This document shows positions 15,101 through 31,719 of a stretch of 64,000 bases of DNA, in pieces; positions within the stretch are counted from its first letter, which is position 1, and every line of letters starts with the position of its first letter. This DNA is from Halobacteriovorax marinus SJ (GTDB lineage: Bacteria > Bdellovibrionota > Bacteriovoracia > Bacteriovoracales > Bacteriovoracaceae). The DNA lies in NCBI RefSeq assembly GCF_000210915.2, contig NC_016620.1, forward strand, positions 1,364,001 through 1,428,000. The letters are read 5' to 3'. The translations under genes and the position numbers were made by a program. The notes beneath the pieces are model-generated. The model was not told where the DNA came from. It saw nothing but the letters and a program-made list of their open reading frames with translations, and made no database searches.

Positions 15101-15238
15101 ATTTTAACTAAGCCAATCGATGGTAACTCACAAGGTAAGATCACTGGAAAGTATTGGAACGGTCCAGTTGAGGAAGTTAGAACAAAAATGAAAATGCAGG
15201 CAAATGAATTCAATGGCTCGTGGCTAAGGGAGAGTATC
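12158..15238 (+). CDS. large secreted protein of unknown function, coupled to a subtilase
   Basis: 1027-aa protein (stop codon at 15239-15241) with a signal peptide (LLKILILSSFLCHFAGA, cut near residue 20). I recognise no known domain. The N-terminal half is mixed alpha/beta; the centre has amphipathic, alternating stretches (for example TKISLTLSSKSVLVKRIHIY). The last ~150 residues carry five or more cysteines among many basic residues (RRHCSATR, KIKCGNF, RDKCESK, AVSCLVD) and end with KDNIFIYGKITGF. That C-terminal layout resembles the 706-aa protein at 42322. The stop codon shares one base with the start of the downstream subtilase (TAATG), so translation is probably coupled. Confidence 0.85.
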
Positions 15239-15240
15239 TA

Positions 15241-18066
15241 ATGAAATCTCTTTTAATTTTACCATTACTTATTTTCTCTTCACTTGCCCATGGAAATGAC
15301 CCTCTAAGTAGTATGCAGTGGGGAATAAAGAATATTGGTCAACCTATCTTTAGAGCAACGGGGGAGCTGACACGAGAGCTCGTTCGAGGAAAGCCAGGGG
15401 TCGATATTGCTATCCCATCTGACTTTGTTCAAAGTAAGAGAAAGGTTATAGTTGCAGTCATTGATTCAGGTGTAGATATTAACCACCCTGATCTAAAGGA
15501 TAATATTTGGTTCAACCCTAAGTGTGAAGGGATGAGCGATGAAGATATTGCCAAGACTGATTGCTATGGTTGGAATTTCTTAGACGGAAACCCTGATGTT
15601 AGTGATGATATCGGTCACGGAACACATGTGGCGGGGATTATCGGTGCCGTTAAAGACAATGGTATCGGAATTAAAGGAGTCGCCGCCGATAATGTAAGTA
15701 TTATGCCACTTAAGATACTCAACTCTAAAGTTAGTACATTTGTTTATGATAAGAAGGTTATTACTAATATTATAGCAGATGCTATTGCTTATGCTGTTAG
15801 CAATGGAGCTGAAGTTATTAATTTAAGTTTAGGTTGGCCTGCTCTTATCCATACTAAGAAAATTAGATACGCTATTGAAACGGCCATTAAGAGAAATGTT
15901 GCCGTTATTGTGGCCGCGGGAAATAACAATAAGAAACTTCCTGTTTATCCATGTGCAAATGATGAAGTTATTTGTGTTGGCGCTATGGATAATGTGGGAG
16001 AGGTTCCAGAGTTTTCAAACTTTGGTGGGAAAGTTGATATTATCGCTCCAGGAGAGAGTATTATTTCTACTTACCCTAGAGGTCTTGAGTCTAGAACTCT
16101 TAGAATTTCAGGCTATGAAATTAAGAAGGGATCCTCTCAAGCAGCACCATTCCTTGCAGGTATTGTTGCACTTTTAAAATCAAAGAATCAAAGTATGAGC
16201 TTTGATGAGATTAAGTATAGATTGTATAAAAGTGCTGAGAGAGACTTTTCGCTTAAAGATGTAAAGTACGGAAAAGTGAATGTTGAAAAAGCTCTTAGTC
16301 TAAAAACAGAAAAAGGTTTTCCTCTTTTTAAATTCAAAGGTCTGACAGAAGTTGGAATTAATGAAGATGGTAGTGTAAAGTTCTCCCTTCCGTATAGAGC
16401 GCTTTTGAAAGATATTTCACAATTAGACTTTAAGGTAGAACTTGAAGATAAAATAAACGGTAAAATACTTTACTCAAAGAAATTTGAAGTTTCGAATGTC
16501 TCTAGTGAGAAAGATCAAGCTGTTGTTATTGATACTGTTATTTCTAATTTCTCTACTTCATCTCACTTAGGACTTAAAGTTTATTACGAGGACAAGGTTA
16601 GCGCTCACGAGATAGCTCTCGTTAGAAATATGCTAGATATAGCTGAGAAAGTAAGTGTAAAACTACCTTTTAGAGACAGTGAAGTTCTTTTAAGCAATAA
16701 TGGTCGACTTTCTTCTTCTCTTAGAAAGGTCGTCTCAAATAAGTTTAAGGGCCAAAGTTTAGATTACTACGTTAGAAGAAGTGCTAGTGCTGGAAAAACA
16801 AAGATTGATCTATCTAGGGTAACACTTTCAGATGTAGAGAGAATTCAATTTGAGATTGATGAAGTTGGGAAGATTGTTAGTATTGTAAAGAATGACTTTA
16901 ATAATGATGGTGTTGAAGACTTTATGATTTACTCTCTCTCAAAAGAAGAGAAGCACCTTGTTCTTAGCTTTGTTACAAAAGAGGGGAGACCTCTCTATGG
17001 AAACCTATATCAATGGTACTTTGAAATATCTACTTTTGAAGGTCTTCCTTTTTTCAATGGTGACATTAAATTTGATTTCATTAATTACGATTTTTCTACA
17101 TTTGGAAAAGTTAAGATACCAGTCTTTATGAAAGATTGGTCTATGCCTGAAGCGGATAATACTCTCGATCCTCTCGATAGAATTGATGAGAATTATATCT
17201 CTAAGAAGCCTTATTTATTATTACCAAAGATTAAAGCAAATAATGTTGAATTAGAGATTAGAACACTGGCCTCTGTTAAGTTCTTGGAAGAGGTTAGAAA
17301 GAAGTACTCTCTTCCTATTCGTGATGGAGTTCTATTTGATCAAATCGTTGAGCAAGATGAGTTCTCTTCTACTTTAACTGGCCTACTTATTTCTGGTAGA
17401 GAATTTAATAAGAGATACTTTCAAATTGAGTATGAGTCTGTTGATTCATATCAAATTACAGAAGTGGATTTCTATGGGTTAAGTCTAGAGTCTAATCGTA
17501 CTCTCGTAACACGTAGAAATGAAAGTATTGCCAATGCCTCATTTGCGCTTAATACCAGAGAGGAGTTAAGGGCGATCTTTTGGGATTTTGAAGGGAATAA
17601 GAGAATTCAAAACTTCAGTACTGGAAGTTGGGGAGATATTATAATTGATATCTTCGATTACTCAAACCGTGATGGGCGTGATTTAATCTTATTAGAGTCT
17701 AGATACTTTATTCATGCCATTACTGGTGATGGTAAGTCGTCTAAACTTCCAATTAATAGAGAAAGTAGTTTTCCTGGGGTGAGCTTTTCAGAAACCTTTA
17801 AAAAGGTAAATGTAGAAACAAAGTCATCAAATGCCCGAGGTATCCTAGTGGACTCCACACTCATTTATGGAGATAGAATTTACTCCATGGTTCAAGATGG
17901 AGATGTCTTTTCTTCTCCAATATATGCGAGCTTTTCTTTACCAAAGAATTGTAAGTACTTGGACGTCGCAGAGTTTGAAGGAGTAGGTCATATCGTTGTT
18001 GCTTGTCATGATAGATTTCTAAGATCTACAATTGAGTTGATCCCACTAAAAGAGAGCGTTAAATAG
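15241..18066 (+). CDS. secreted S8 (subtilisin-like) serine protease
   Basis: 941-aa protein with signal peptide (LLILPLLIFSSLAHG) and an S8 catalytic domain to about residue 345. Catalytic residues: D75 in AVIDSGVDINHPDL, H126 in GHGTHVAG, S299 in KGSSQAAPFLAG, with oxyanion N228 in AAGNNN. The ~590-residue C-terminal part is of unknown type, with one FG-GAP-like segment (NDFNNDGVEDFMIYS). The ATG at 15241 is chosen because GGGAGAG precedes it and it begins the signal peptide; an in-frame ATG at 15220 would add 7 residues inside the upstream gene. It may process or act with the upstream partner (inference). Confidence 0.92.
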   Translation: MKSLLILPLLIFSSLAHGNDPLSSMQWGIKNIGQPIFRATGELTRELVRGKPGVDIAIPSDFVQSKRKVIVAVIDSGVDINHPDLKDNIWFNPKCEGMSDEDIAKTDCYGWNFLDGNPDVSDDIGHGTHVAGIIGAVKDNGIGIKGVAADNVSIMPLKILNSKVSTFVYDKKVITNIIADAIAYAVSNGAEVINLSLGWPALIHTKKIRYAIETAIKRNVAVIVAAGNNNKKLPVYPCANDEVICVGAMDNVGEVPEFSNFGGKVDIIAPGESIISTYPRGLESRTLRISGYEIKKGSSQAAPFLAGIVALLKSKNQSMSFDEIKYRLYKSAERDFSLKDVKYGKVNVEKALSLKTEKGFPLFKFKGLTEVGINEDGSVKFSLPYRALLKDISQLDFKVELEDKINGKILYSKKFEVSNVSSEKDQAVVIDTVISNFSTSSHLGLKVYYEDKVSAHEIALVRNMLDIAEKVSVKLPFRDSEVLLSNNGRLSSSLRKVVSNKFKGQSLDYYVRRSASAGKTKIDLSRVTLSDVERIQFEIDEVGKIVSIVKNDFNNDGVEDFMIYSLSKEEKHLVLSFVTKEGRPLYGNLYQWYFEISTFEGLPFFNGDIKFDFINYDFSTFGKVKIPVFMKDWSMPEADNTLDPLDRIDENYISKKPYLLLPKIKANNVELEIRTLASVKFLEEVRKKYSLPIRDGVLFDQIVEQDEFSSTLTGLLISGREFNKRYFQIEYESVDSYQITEVDFYGLSLESNRTLVTRRNESIANASFALNTREELRAIFWDFEGNKRIQNFSTGSWGDIIIDIFDYSNRDGRDLILLESRYFIHAITGDGKSSKLPINRESSFPGVSFSETFKKVNVETKSSNARGILVDSTLIYGDRIYSMVQDGDVFSSPIYASFSLPKNCKYLDVAEFEGVGHIVVACHDRFLRSTIELIPLKESVK

Positions 18067-27060: not shown

Positions 27061-27336
27061 ATGGCGGAAATGAATCAAAATTTTTCAATACAAGAAGAGC
27101 AGATTTATACTAAATGGACTGAGCAGGCTGAAGCTTTCCTTGCTGCCAATGAAGCGCTAGAGAGAAAAGAGCTGGCCGAGATTGAAAGAAGCCGAAAGTT
27201 TAAGTTGGGTGCTAATATTCTCTTTACTGCTGTTATGATATTTTCAATTATTCAGATATTTTTTGGAATCGTTTTAATTCTCATTCAATTTCCTGAGATG
27301 AGCTGGTTAAAGAATTTACTTATTAGCTATTTTTAA
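27061..27336 (+). CDS. small membrane protein with one or two C-terminal helices
   Basis: 91-aa protein: a charged, helical N-terminal half (QEEQIYTKWTEQAEAFLAAN) and a hydrophobic segment of about 26 residues (ILFTAVMIFSIIQIFFGIVL) near residues 53-76, possibly followed by a short amphipathic end. Ribosome site AAAGGA is present. Unknown function. Its stop codon overlaps that of the convergent small subtilase by 3-4 bp. Confidence 0.65.
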   Translation: MAEMNQNFSIQEEQIYTKWTEQAEAFLAANEALERKELAEIERSRKFKLGANILFTAVMIFSIIQIFFGIVLILIQFPEMSWLKNLLISYF

Positions 27337-28157
27337 AAACTTAAAACTTCCACTTTTTCATTATCATTAAAAATTTCAATTTTCTTTTTCACTTTATCTA
27401 AGCAAGTTGCAAGGGGTTCTCTCTTTTTCAACTCTTGATAGCAATGATGAATGGCCTTAGCACTAGCAATGGCACAGGCGCGGCTCGTTCCTTTAAAAGA
27501 ATCATTAGCGCCACCTCCTTCAAAGAAGAATTTCATTTGAGTAGGGTTAATGAGAGTGTAGTCAGGTCTTGCCGGGAGGTCACTATCTTTAGGAGTATAG
27601 CTGCCAATAGTAAAGACATTTGGAAGCTTAAACTGACTCTGTGGCCAGAGAATGGACTTGTACTGAATGCCTCTACCTAATGTTGCTCCAGCGACTACAA
27701 TAGGGATCGATATTTTAATATTTTCTAATTGTGGAGTTGATTTTATTCCAGCTGCAATAATGAAGAGGTGGTAATCATTCTGCTTGGAGAATGCACGACT
27801 CCAATATACTTCATTTTGTTTGGCATATTTATCAAAAATAATAAATGGGGTAATTTCAATTTCATGACCAGAAGGAAGCTCTTTTAGAAATCTCTCTAAA
27901 ACCCAATTACCATGTAATCTTCTATTCTTATTTTTAAGTTTCTTACAATCAAAGTGATTACTCTTCGTGAGGTCAATGCTTTCTTTGAAAGTGATATTCT
28001 TTGAGTAGGAGAGTTTGTCTGGGCAAAAGCCTGTGTCTAAAACTGCAATCTTAAGGGGAGAGGCGATTAGTGGGAGTGAAAAAAAGAGAAGGAGGGATAA
28101 AATCCCTCCTCTAAGGTAAACCTTATTCTCTCTCTTCGGCCATTTCAAATGGCGCAT
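27333..28157 (-). CDS. small secreted subtilisin-like protease
   Basis: 274-aa S8-type protein. Signal peptide after a long basic start (LSLLLFFSLPLIAS). Catalytic motifs: D41 in KIAVLDTGF, H82 in RRLHGNWV, S225 in FKGTSRACAIASAKA. The usual oxyanion Asn of AAGN is replaced (FIIAAGIKS, Ile at 138), so activity is uncertain. The ATG at 28157 is preceded by AAGGG; an earlier in-frame start at 28232 lies deep in the upstream gene. It overlaps the end of the 1198-aa gene by 35 bp, and a terminator-like hairpin lies inside its signal-peptide codons. Confidence 0.83.
   Translation of the reverse strand: MRHLKWPKRENKVYLRGGILSLLLFFSLPLIASPLKIAVLDTGFCPDKLSYSKNITFKESIDLTKSNHFDCKKLKNKNRRLHGNWVLERFLKELPSGHEIEITPFIIFDKYAKQNEVYWSRAFSKQNDYHLFIIAAGIKSTPQLENIKISIPIVVAGATLGRGIQYKSILWPQSQFKLPNVFTIGSYTPKDSDLPARPDYTLINPTQMKFFFEGGGANDSFKGTSRACAIASAKAIHHCYQELKKREPLATCLDKVKKKIEIFNDNEKVEVLSF
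28079..28110 (-). terminator. terminator-like hairpin inside the signal-peptide codons of the small subtilase
   Basis: Minus-strand RNA: 9-bp perfect stem AGGAGGGAU/AUCCCUCCU with a 3-nt loop, followed by UCUC and seven U. It lies 13 bp after the stop of the 1198-aa gene and 47 bp into the subtilase ORF. It has all the marks of an intrinsic terminator or attenuator. Confidence 0.8.
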
Positions 28158-31100
28158 GAATTCCCTTATTATTTGAAACTTGCTTGTAAAGTTTTTTGTC
28201 ATACTTCTTAAGTGCCTTGTAACTCTTATCAACTTCTTTTAATGCCGCTGAGATAAAGAGTGCTCCAAACATTCTATTTTGAATCGCAAACTTTACTCTG
28301 TCTTCGATTGGATCGTAGAACTTAAGCGCGTTTCTCATAGTATAATAGAAGTCGTGAGCAAAGAGAAATAGTGAAACATTGCTATCTCTAGTTTTTCCGT
28401 CAACTAAGTCTCCAAGTCTATTATGGAAGAGTGACTTGTCATCTTTTAAAAGATTAGCAATATCTTTATCTCTACCTAATCCACTACCACTTAGGTCGTA
28501 GTGCTTGTTGATTCTCATCGTCTCATCAATACCTCTGATAATACCCATTTGCATTAATTGCTTATTGGCCGTTGATGAAGCAAAGAATGAGCTCTTGTTT
28601 ACATTTGACTCAATCTTCTTAAGAATTTGGTCATTTGAAAGCTTCATTAACTCTGCAAGAGCAAGGTACTTCTTATAAGATCTGATATCTGAAGCAAGTA
28701 CTGGTACTGCTGTCTTTAATCCAGATGCTCTTAGTGGATTTGCAAAAATCATCTTAGTATTTGTATCAACTCCTGCAACATTAAAGTTAAAGCTCTCAGC
28801 ATCTTTGAAAGTTGAGATTGATTTAACTCCACCAAATCCATTCTGTAATTCATCAATTAAAACAACTGAAGTATTTGCAGATTTCTTTAGCATCCCATCG
28901 ATATCTTTAATTGCACCTTTCTCTAATAGAAGAAGAGTCTTTCCTTTTACTCCATTAGCAAGTGGAGTTTTATTTAAACTTCTTAAACTTGTATCTAGAA
29001 CACTTGCACCCTGTAGTCCGCCCATTGTTGCAAGAAGGTCTACAAGATCATTTGCAGCGTAATCAGAGTTTGCGACTACAACTGGCTTTCCAGCTTTCTC
29101 TACGTAAGGAGCCTTGGCCATTGTCGTAAGGGCCCTGTCGAGAACACCTAAAGTCACTCCATTCTTAGATACTTTTACATTAAATGTAATTGGCGTGTAG
29201 ATATCTGCTTCGTCAGAAACGTTTACTACTGAATCATTTAATTGAGTTGAACGATCTAACTTAGTTAGAGAATTAAACCCTTTTGTGATGACTTTAGATC
29301 TCGCGTTTGAAGAGATATCTAGCTTCAATTCACCTTGGTAACTTCTCTTTGAGTTATTTGAAAGCTTAACTGATAGAGAGTTATTCTTTCCAATAATGAT
29401 TGTACCATTTGTCGACAATGAACTAAGTGCAAGAGGGTAGTTAACTCTATTTGATTTTCTATCTCCAGAGTTAAGTTTTCCCTGTGCAAGGTTAGCGTAG
29501 TGACGACCTTGGATGTCAGCTTGTGCATTTAAAGGTAGGTATACATTTACGACCTTTGTATCTGTCTTTCCAAGAGAAGCATTAACAGTAGACTTAGAAG
29601 CACCCTTAACTTTTGTTATCGATTTTGCTGGGATAGAAGCAATTGTTGATTTTGCTCCATTTTCCATAACTACGACAACATTCTTTGCTTCTGTATCTCC
29701 AAAGTTCTGGATAACAACATCGTGGTAAGTTGTCTCTCCTGGTTGGAAGATACCGTCTTTTGCTGCAACACCATTTATACCTCCATCAGTGATTGATGAA
29801 GAAACAAATTTAAGAACTGGATTTTCAGAATAAATCTTTGAAACACTTTCAAATTTCTTCTTTCTAAAAATTTCAGTTTGTTCTGCTATATTAGTATTGA
29901 AAGTATTGGTTTCAACTCTACGGTACTCTGTCGCTCTGATGCTCTCATACTCAGATTCATAAACATTACTTTCGACTCTTGCATAAGTACTTTGATACTC
30001 TGGAGCAGAAGTGTTTGGTGAAATACTGAATTGAGTTCTAAAGCGGTTATACGCATTATCATAGTGAACACCGTAATCTCTATTGTAAGCATCTGACTGA
30101 CCTTGCTCATAACCAGCTTGTCTATCAGTAGGGTAGGCTCTATTGTAATGAACATCATAGTTGTTATTATAGCTAGCCGTATAAGTGTCATTATAGATTC
30201 TTGGGATGACAGTTTCATATGTTGAACGAAGTCTTGCTCTATACCTCTTCTTATAACCATCTTTAAAAGCTTGCTCTACAATCTTTCTAGCGAAACCACC
30301 TTGTGGATTAAAGTTTCTACCTTGGTGCTCGCTTGGGAAAGCTGGGATCACTCTAGCGAATGAGCCTGCAAAAGAACCATTTACTTCTTTTGAATCTAAT
30401 TTTCTTGTCTCAAATTTCTTGATCGCTTCATTTTTACCATTTTCAGTACCGATTTGATCACCTGTTCTGATTGCTCTCTGCATACCAGCGGCAGATCCTT
30501 GATTGGCGCCAACTACTGCAGCGTCAGACGCTTGTGCTCTATTGGCCCCATCAACCTGAGCAGTCTTTGTAGCAGCATCTACATTTCCTGCATAAGTCCC
30601 TTCAATCGTACCTGCAGCTGTTCCTTCTTGTTCGGCCCTCGCCGCTCCGTCGTGTTGACCTTCTTGATATCCGATATCTCTTTGACGCTCGCGTCCTGCT
30701 CTTGTACCTTCGTTGATTCCGTCATTCTCACCATCTCTTGATCCATAGTGAGTTCCAAGTCTATTAGAAAGATAGCGACCGTCAGACTCACCGTCTAGCG
30801 ATCCTTCATTGGCTCCCTTCTTATTGGCGTCAAGTACTCTTGCGATAAGTCTTTCTCTAAATTTCTCCTTATCTAGTTGAGCAATATTTAGAGCATTACT
30901 TAAATTCTTAGTTTCATTTTGTAGTTTCGTTAACTCGGTCTGTGCTACTTTTAACTTTTGAGTTAAATCTTTTAGTGATGCTTTACTTTGAACTAGTTTT
31001 TGATTCTTTGTCGCTATTTCAGTTCCTAGTTTATCAACCTGTGCTTTTTGCTCAGCGATCTTCTTTTTAAGTTGATTAACTTTCTTCTTCTCTTGCTTTG

Positions 31101-31719
31101 CATTTTCGCTAAGATTCTCTAACTGCTTCTGTGCTTTAGCAACTGATTGTGTGTAAACTTCTACATCTTGCTTAAGCTCAGCAACTTTCTTCTTACACGC
31201 TGGAGTAGGCTCTGCCTCACAGGCCTCTGATTGTTTTTCAAGCCTCTGTTGTTTCTTCGTTAGCGTTTGCTCTAGCTCTTTAACTTCTTTTGTTTTCTTA
31301 TTTACTTTATTATCTGCTTGAGCTTGAAGGCTTTCGGCCTTTGGAAGCTCCTGCTCATTCTTAGTGATTTCTTTTTTGAGATTACCTTGTTCAGTGATGG
31401 CCTTGGAGATTTGATTGCCAAGCTTTGTCACTTCTTGATTGGCCTCTTGCTTCTTTGTTTTTAAATTATTTACATTCTGCTTCTTAGCTTTCTCTCTTTG
31501 TTGTGCTTGATTGAGAGCTGTTGTTGCAACTTCTACTCTGCGAATTCTTTGACTAAGGTCTTCATCTTGATTCAGTCTAAAGTTTAGATTACCAATATAT
31601 CCACGGGCCCAGTTGGGGTTATTATCTGCTAAGATTTTTGGTGAAATTGATAATAAGAGTGCAAGTGTGATTGATGTTGCGATCTTAGACTTGTTTCCTG
31701 GCCCCATTAGCTGTTTCAT
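28123..31719 (-). CDS. 1198-aa secreted coiled-coil and repeat protein
   Basis: Signal peptide (IATSITLALLLSISPKILA), then a long coiled coil (~45-290, Lys/Gln/Glu-rich). Residues ~298-425 are a glycine-repeat region with period near 4 (NEGSLDGESDG, SRDGENDGINEGTRAG, GTAAGTIEGTYAG). Residues ~490-640 are Tyr/Asn/Arg-rich with repeats such as YDVHYNRAYPTDR and YGVHYDNAYNRFR. A beta domain follows with DGIFQPGETTYHDVVIQN, like cell-surface Ig-type or NEW3/CARDB modules; the rest (~720-1198) is unassigned. Probably an extracellular or periplasmic fibrous protein. It overlaps the subtilase gene downstream by 35 bp. Confidence 0.88.
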   Translation of the reverse strand: MKQLMGPGNKSKIATSITLALLLSISPKILADNNPNWARGYIGNLNFRLNQDEDLSQRIRRVEVATTALNQAQQREKAKKQNVNNLKTKKQEANQEVTKLGNQISKAITEQGNLKKEITKNEQELPKAESLQAQADNKVNKKTKEVKELEQTLTKKQQRLEKQSEACEAEPTPACKKKVAELKQDVEVYTQSVAKAQKQLENLSENAKQEKKKVNQLKKKIAEQKAQVDKLGTEIATKNQKLVQSKASLKDLTQKLKVAQTELTKLQNETKNLSNALNIAQLDKEKFRERLIARVLDANKKGANEGSLDGESDGRYLSNRLGTHYGSRDGENDGINEGTRAGRERQRDIGYQEGQHDGAARAEQEGTAAGTIEGTYAGNVDAATKTAQVDGANRAQASDAAVVGANQGSAAGMQRAIRTGDQIGTENGKNEAIKKFETRKLDSKEVNGSFAGSFARVIPAFPSEHQGRNFNPQGGFARKIVEQAFKDGYKKRYRARLRSTYETVIPRIYNDTYTASYNNNYDVHYNRAYPTDRQAGYEQGQSDAYNRDYGVHYDNAYNRFRTQFSISPNTSAPEYQSTYARVESNVYESEYESIRATEYRRVETNTFNTNIAEQTEIFRKKKFESVSKIYSENPVLKFVSSSITDGGINGVAAKDGIFQPGETTYHDVVIQNFGDTEAKNVVVVMENGAKSTIASIPAKSITKVKGASKSTVNASLGKTDTKVVNVYLPLNAQADIQGRHYANLAQGKLNSGDRKSNRVNYPLALSSLSTNGTIIIGKNNSLSVKLSNNSKRSYQGELKLDISSNARSKVITKGFNSLTKLDRSTQLNDSVVNVSDEADIYTPITFNVKVSKNGVTLGVLDRALTTMAKAPYVEKAGKPVVVANSDYAANDLVDLLATMGGLQGASVLDTSLRSLNKTPLANGVKGKTLLLLEKGAIKDIDGMLKKSANTSVVLIDELQNGFGGVKSISTFKDAESFNFNVAGVDTNTKMIFANPLRASGLKTAVPVLASDIRSYKKYLALAELMKLSNDQILKKIESNVNKSSFFASSTANKQLMQMGIIRGIDETMRINKHYDLSGSGLGRDKDIANLLKDDKSLFHNRLGDLVDGKTRDSNVSLFLFAHDFYYTMRNALKFYDPIEDRVKFAIQNRMFGALFISAALKEVDKSYKALKKYDKKLYKQVSNNKGIHAPFEMAEERE

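Follow-up and report, generated by a model that had tools for sequence, protein, structure and literature searches.

The gene for a secreted subtilase-like protease of Halobacteriovorax marinus SJ begins within the end of a long gene on the same strand, and the codons of its signal peptide contain a hairpin followed by a run of U. This locus raises the question of whether one stretch of DNA can serve both as an export signal and as the intrinsic terminator of the preceding gene. The coordinates below refer to the window, the whole stretch of 64,000 nucleotides that was analyzed (NC_016620.1, positions 1,364,001 to 1,428,000). The locus comprises the following features:

28123..31719, minus strand: gene for a 1198-aa secreted protein of no known family.
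28123..28125, minus strand: TAA stop codon of this gene, read from the sequence.
27333..28157, minus strand: secreted subtilase-like protease gene, an open frame of 274 aa with ATG at 28157.
28090..28110, minus strand: hairpin with a 9-bp stem, AGGAGGGAT/ATCCCTCCT, and a UUU loop (stem AGGAGGGAT at 28110-28102, loop TTT at 28101-28099, stem ATCCCTCCT at 28098-28090), assigned from sequence, folding, covariation and a synonymous null.
28079..28089, minus strand: U-run of UCUC (TCTC, 28089-28086) and seven U (TTTTTTT, 28085-28079), coding for L-L-F-F of the hydrophobic core.

A preliminary description had reported a perfect 9-bp stem followed by UCUC and U7 on the minus strand (28110-28079), located past the stop of the 1198-aa gene (TAA, 28125-28123) yet inside the subtilase frame (28157 to 27333), and the sequence bore out both points. 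The stem could be extended to 10 bp with one G-U pair. The stop of the upstream gene lies 13 nt from the hairpin core, the upstream gene and the protease frame overlap by 35 nt, and the codons over the element read L-R-G-G-I-L-S-L-L-L-F-F-S within a signal peptide of approximately MRHLKWPKRENKVYLRGGILSLLLFFSLPLIAS. The features of an intrinsic terminator were present, namely a G+C-rich stable stem, a short 3-nt loop, and a U-rich run directly 3' of the stem. The 61-nt stretch containing the hairpin showed a folding energy of -19.7 kcal/mol (z = -2.6 against shuffles), with one small separate hairpin upstream in the fold. When the protein was held fixed, the window copy gave p = 0.018 for the hairpin alone and p = 0.046 for the hairpin and U-run jointly. 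By itself, the window copy was thus barely distinguishable from chance (synonymous-codon null, p ~0.02-0.05). Its terminator score, an approximation of the published d'Aubenton Carafa score in function and coefficients with approximate stacking energies, was low, and a terminator scan of 16 kb yielded 15 sites versus 10.9 ± 3.1 in shuffles. An ordinary terminator for comparison with the embedded one (AGGGTCC-TATTT-GGGCCCT, then TCTTTTTTT) lies at 23199-23181, just past the stop of a 313-aa gene. We judged the embedded element to exceed chance because of its relatives, not because of the window copy alone.

The protease matched Pfam Peptidase_S8 (PF00082) weakly (20.4 bits, E = 3.6e-4; curated cut-off, 21.8 bits), and a search of PDB sequences using the profile of the protease returned no match. 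The Asp-His-Ser triad of the subtilase type (D68, H109, and S252) was invariant across the sequences of 38 relatives. A second, far larger subtilase-like gene (948 aa, GTG start) is encoded at 15220-18066 of the window and overlaps the end of its preceding 1027-aa gene by 22 nt. The 1198-aa protein matched no Pfam family and, in NCBIfam, only coiled-coil entries; it consists of a coiled coil, G-rich repeats, and a beta-sandwich C-terminal part. The structure of the C-terminal part was predicted confidently (pLDDT 89.7), and the fold matches of this model suggested a partial beta-sandwich resemblance only, with low TM-scores that are uninformative on function. Of 129 genomes of the family, 49 contained an orthologue, and the protein is nearly limited to this class, the remaining genomes of the phylum yielding two weaker matches.

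Within this family, which in the genome set used makes up the entire order and class, 47 usable genomes contained a protease orthologue. At 40 of the 47 loci, the protease lies immediately behind the long gene or overlaps it, so that the element lies between two same-strand genes able to be co-transcribed, and a hairpin with a U-rich run in the signal-peptide codons was found at 38 of these 40 tandem loci (exceptions, L007 and L043), although the loci share ancestry and such counts are not independent trials. The terminator score was positive at 32 of the 38 element-bearing tandem loci. The stems differed wholly between genera, as in GGGTCCTCTATTTGGGGACCC-T8, GGGTCAGTATTCTTACTGGCCC-T8, and GCCCCAGGATTATTCCTGGGGC-T7. 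Across the relatives, the U-run was formed chiefly by Phe and Leu codons of the hydrophobic core, and the tail contained on average 7.25 T per nine bases (40 loci), with poor U-runs at a few loci, such as L048 (TTTAG) and L044 (TCTTTATAA). The hairpin lay 5 to 49 nt past the upstream stop, with a median of 13 nt.

To separate selection on RNA from selection on protein, synonymous codons were resampled at each locus with the codon usage of that locus and with the protein fixed. Of 40 loci compared with this null, 35 had a more stable hairpin at p ≤ 0.01, 39 did at p ≤ 0.05, and 38 reached p ≤ 0.05 for the joint score of hairpin and U-run. The excess of T in the nine bases after the stem was smaller (290 summed over 40 loci versus a synonymous expectation of 272 ± 4.6). 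Permutation of codons within the region, which is a weaker null in that it reuses the stem codons, gave fewer significant loci than synonymous resampling. Among eleven alignable loci of one genus, 97% of the stem cells were paired and seven of the nine pairs had changed on both sides; none of 500 shuffles equaled the observed pairing, and slid-register controls were 33-61% paired. In the genus of the window itself (five species), five of the nine stem pairs had changed on both sides. These data supported a selected, terminator-type element within the signal-peptide codons: pairing, the loss of which in close relatives had been named beforehand as evidence against the element, was kept through compensatory changes. 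The preliminary description had proposed to look for synonymous compensations. The compensation itself held, and the term synonymous understated it, as many of the changes alter the amino acid; for example, the two arms encode Pro-Leu ... Gly-Ala in some species versus Leu-Ala ... Gly-Pro in others. At these positions, the protein thus follows the RNA.

The occurrence of the element mainly accompanied a same-strand gene immediately upstream, with exceptions in both directions. Seven genomes have a protease gene that does not directly follow the long gene, and five of them lack the element (L017, L036, L038, L046, and L047). Where the long gene has no protease behind it, an ordinary intergenic terminator usually follows shortly past its stop (L112, L115, L117, and L118). 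Conversely, the element is retained at L042, with a different gene ahead of the protease, and at L050, where the long gene is missing, which indicates that the neighbourhood is not the whole explanation.

The pattern extended to other genes for secreted proteins. In a control set drawn from four genomes of the class (~1.6 Mb of coding sequence, with mechanical gene calls), 542 N-terminal hydrophobic segments contained nine sites with a positive score versus 1.4 expected from synonymous resampling, and five strong sites (d > 20) versus 0.03 expected. The protease itself accounts for two of these nine sites, and another two possibly reflect mis-assigned starts. In eight of the nine, the gene starts at most 60 nt from the upstream gene or overlaps it, and N-terminal segments without a close upstream gene showed no clear enrichment (one site observed versus 0.68 expected, d > 0). 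The 485 internal hydrophobic segments contained no strong site, and weak ones were depleted (3 versus 7.7 expected). At the level of families, 14 of 30 loci of a TPR lipoprotein behind a ~510-aa gene carried the element at p ≤ 0.01, and the stems covaried. The same threshold was reached at 14 of 19 loci of a third, unrelated secreted family, which has no Pfam match and lies behind a ~315-aa gene; seven of them had a positive terminator score. The pattern is therefore recurrent, being shared by at least two further families of secreted proteins in the class, and it is most consistent in the protease pair.

Based on these data, we consider it highly probable that the hairpin and U-run are a selected intrinsic (Rho-independent) terminator overprinted on signal-peptide codons, which terminates the majority of upstream-gene transcripts and acts as an obligatory attenuator of the protease. 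Most mRNAs of the 1198-aa gene would have their 3' end at this terminator, which is placed a short distance past the stop, like other terminators of these genomes. The protease would then be encoded only by read-through transcripts, and a partial terminator would hold it at a low level relative to its upstream partner. In the window protease, no in-frame ATG, GTG, or TTG occurs from the hairpin to the catalytic IAVLDTG motif; every protease start therefore lies upstream, and the hairpin falls in translated codons whichever start is used. The attenuation of the protease that had been suggested at the outset would follow from this geometry, provided that the element terminates at all. We infer termination in vivo, the size of the read-through, and any tuning of it by the ribosome finishing the upstream gene alike; that some polymerases do read through is suggested by the protease frame, which is conserved and intact and retains its catalytic triad. 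A signal peptide would be suited to host such an element, in that its Phe and Leu codons can provide the U-run and the tolerant sequence before them the stem. A likely cost is that ribosomes starting the protease on terminated transcripts would reach a non-stop end.

Several other explanations were weighed against this terminator. Phe-, Leu-, and Gly-rich signal peptides in an AT-rich genome could yield hairpin-plus-U patterns by chance, and both the borderline window copy and the origin of the U-runs, largely a by-product of Phe and Leu codons, are in line with this. However, the 35 of 40 loci significant at p ≤ 0.01 with protein and codon usage kept, the covariation, and the internal hydrophobic segments without the pattern make chance a very improbable source, and hydrophobic codon content was rejected for the family on the basis of the synonymous nulls and the internal-segment control. 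It is even less probable that the protease begins downstream of the hairpin, which would place the hairpin in an ordinary intergenic gap. An in-frame start candidate past the hairpin exists at some loci, but the window and most relatives lack any ATG, GTG, or TTG between the hairpin and the catalytic motif, and a mis-assigned start was rejected on this ground. Moreover, the frame is open through the hairpin at every locus and codes for a signal-peptide-like stretch, and several relatives have an ATG just 18 nt ahead of the hairpin.

That the hairpin was selected as an RNA structure rather than as a terminator, either protecting or defining the processed 3' end of the long mRNA or slowing ribosomes at the signal peptide, is unlikely. 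The hairpin is indeed the strongest signal and the excess of U is modest (290 versus 272), but the U-run is enriched, lies directly 3' of the hairpin on the coding strand, and the element chiefly accompanies a co-directional gene upstream (one site versus 0.68 expected where no close one exists). A regulated switch would refine the terminator reading rather than replace it: translation would set the read-through, and lagging translation would halt transcription, so that the element would act as a sensor of coupling and not as a fixed divider. In E. coli, terminators located less than 100 bp into a coding region are efficient, as the ribosome of that frame lags behind, and the ribosome finishing an upstream gene suppresses, partly or fully, terminators less than ~27 nt from its stop (PMC4824070); the hairpin lies 5-49 nt (median 13) past the upstream stop. 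By analogy with these data, the 13-nt spacing suggests that any ribosome melting the hairpin, as had been proposed for the protease, would more likely be one finishing the 1198-aa gene than one starting the protease. Terminators melted by ribosomes also control pil1 of S. gallolyticus (PMC3894217). The spacing is not special, however: ordinary terminators of the same genomes showed median stop-to-hairpin distances of 11-27 nt, matching the 13 nt of the embedded element; bacteria with uncoupled transcription routinely use equally short distances (PMC7858274); and the spacing exceeds 22 nt at 13 of 37 measured loci. Because uncoupled bacteria also have short spacings, the likelihood of a fixed divider is no lower than that of a switch, and we regard the switch as possible but doubtful.

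The E. coli frd terminator doubles as the ampC attenuator and is located in the ampC leader, not in coding sequence. There, as here, the terminator of an upstream gene attenuates a downstream exported enzyme, whereas the element described here is within the protease coding sequence. Terminators in leader-peptide ORFs (pyrBI, bmrB, and pil1) and partial terminators within operons are already established. The attenuators of E. coli pyrBI and amino-acid operons resemble the present element in placing an intrinsic terminator in translated codons near the 5' end, and their termination efficiency depends on ribosome position (PMC4824070). In contrast, their host ORF is a dedicated leader peptide of the trp/pyrBI type, whereas the host ORF here is a functional secreted enzyme, the protease itself, with the terminator in its signal peptide. 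Similarly, the terminators of B. subtilis bmrB-bmrCD and S. gallolyticus pil1 lie in or next to a translated ORF, and translation alters their read-through (PMC4191407; PMC3894217); unlike the present case, these ORFs are short leader peptides and no upstream structural gene is terminated, and no repeat switch was seen here. Part of one report describes ioTTS of Methanococcus maripaludis and Clostridium ABC transporter operons, in which partial termination between operon genes lowers the downstream gene (PMC10450193); these belong to another domain or phylum, and that part does not mention an overlap with a downstream signal peptide. Full-text searches of open-licence papers retrieved no terminator in the signal peptide of a functional secreted enzyme that is preserved by covariation throughout a class and recurs in other genes.

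If the terminator reading is correct, one DNA stretch is under two strong constraints, an export signal and a terminator, and RNA pairing drives amino-acid changes. This suggests that signal peptides, which are sequence-tolerant and rich in Phe and Leu, can host terminators where genes are tightly packed. Terminator annotation would change, as searches usually leave out coding sequence, and so would operon prediction and the interpretation of codon-level selection at signal peptides. The locus would also offer a natural, testable system for transcription-translation coupling beyond model bacteria. Only tentatively, and with less likelihood than not, can this be generalized to the joint proposal that signal peptides of this class are general terminator sites, that downstream secreted genes are expressed only by read-through of a terminator in their own export signal, that signal-peptide sequence is shaped by RNA pairing, and that read-through is gated by the closeness of the ribosome to RNA polymerase on the upstream gene.

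In the same genome, the lipoprotein signal codons of the TPR lipoprotein gene (L125:9392-10237) include a strong terminator, as do those at the loci L205-L217, L225, and L232; the terminator is located 6-25 nt past the stop of the ~510-aa gene, and its stems covary between genera (e.g., GGCGCTGGTTTTTATCAGCGCC-T6 and GGGGCTAGCTTTGCTGGCCCC-T8). Loci of the third secreted family with terminators embedded in the signal peptide include L155:19077-19934, L199:14515-15189, L239, L243, L246, L249, and L260. Single further terminator-like elements in signal or membrane-anchor codons just past an upstream stop were observed at L202:12131-12940, L166:6971-7765, and L126:15774-16097.
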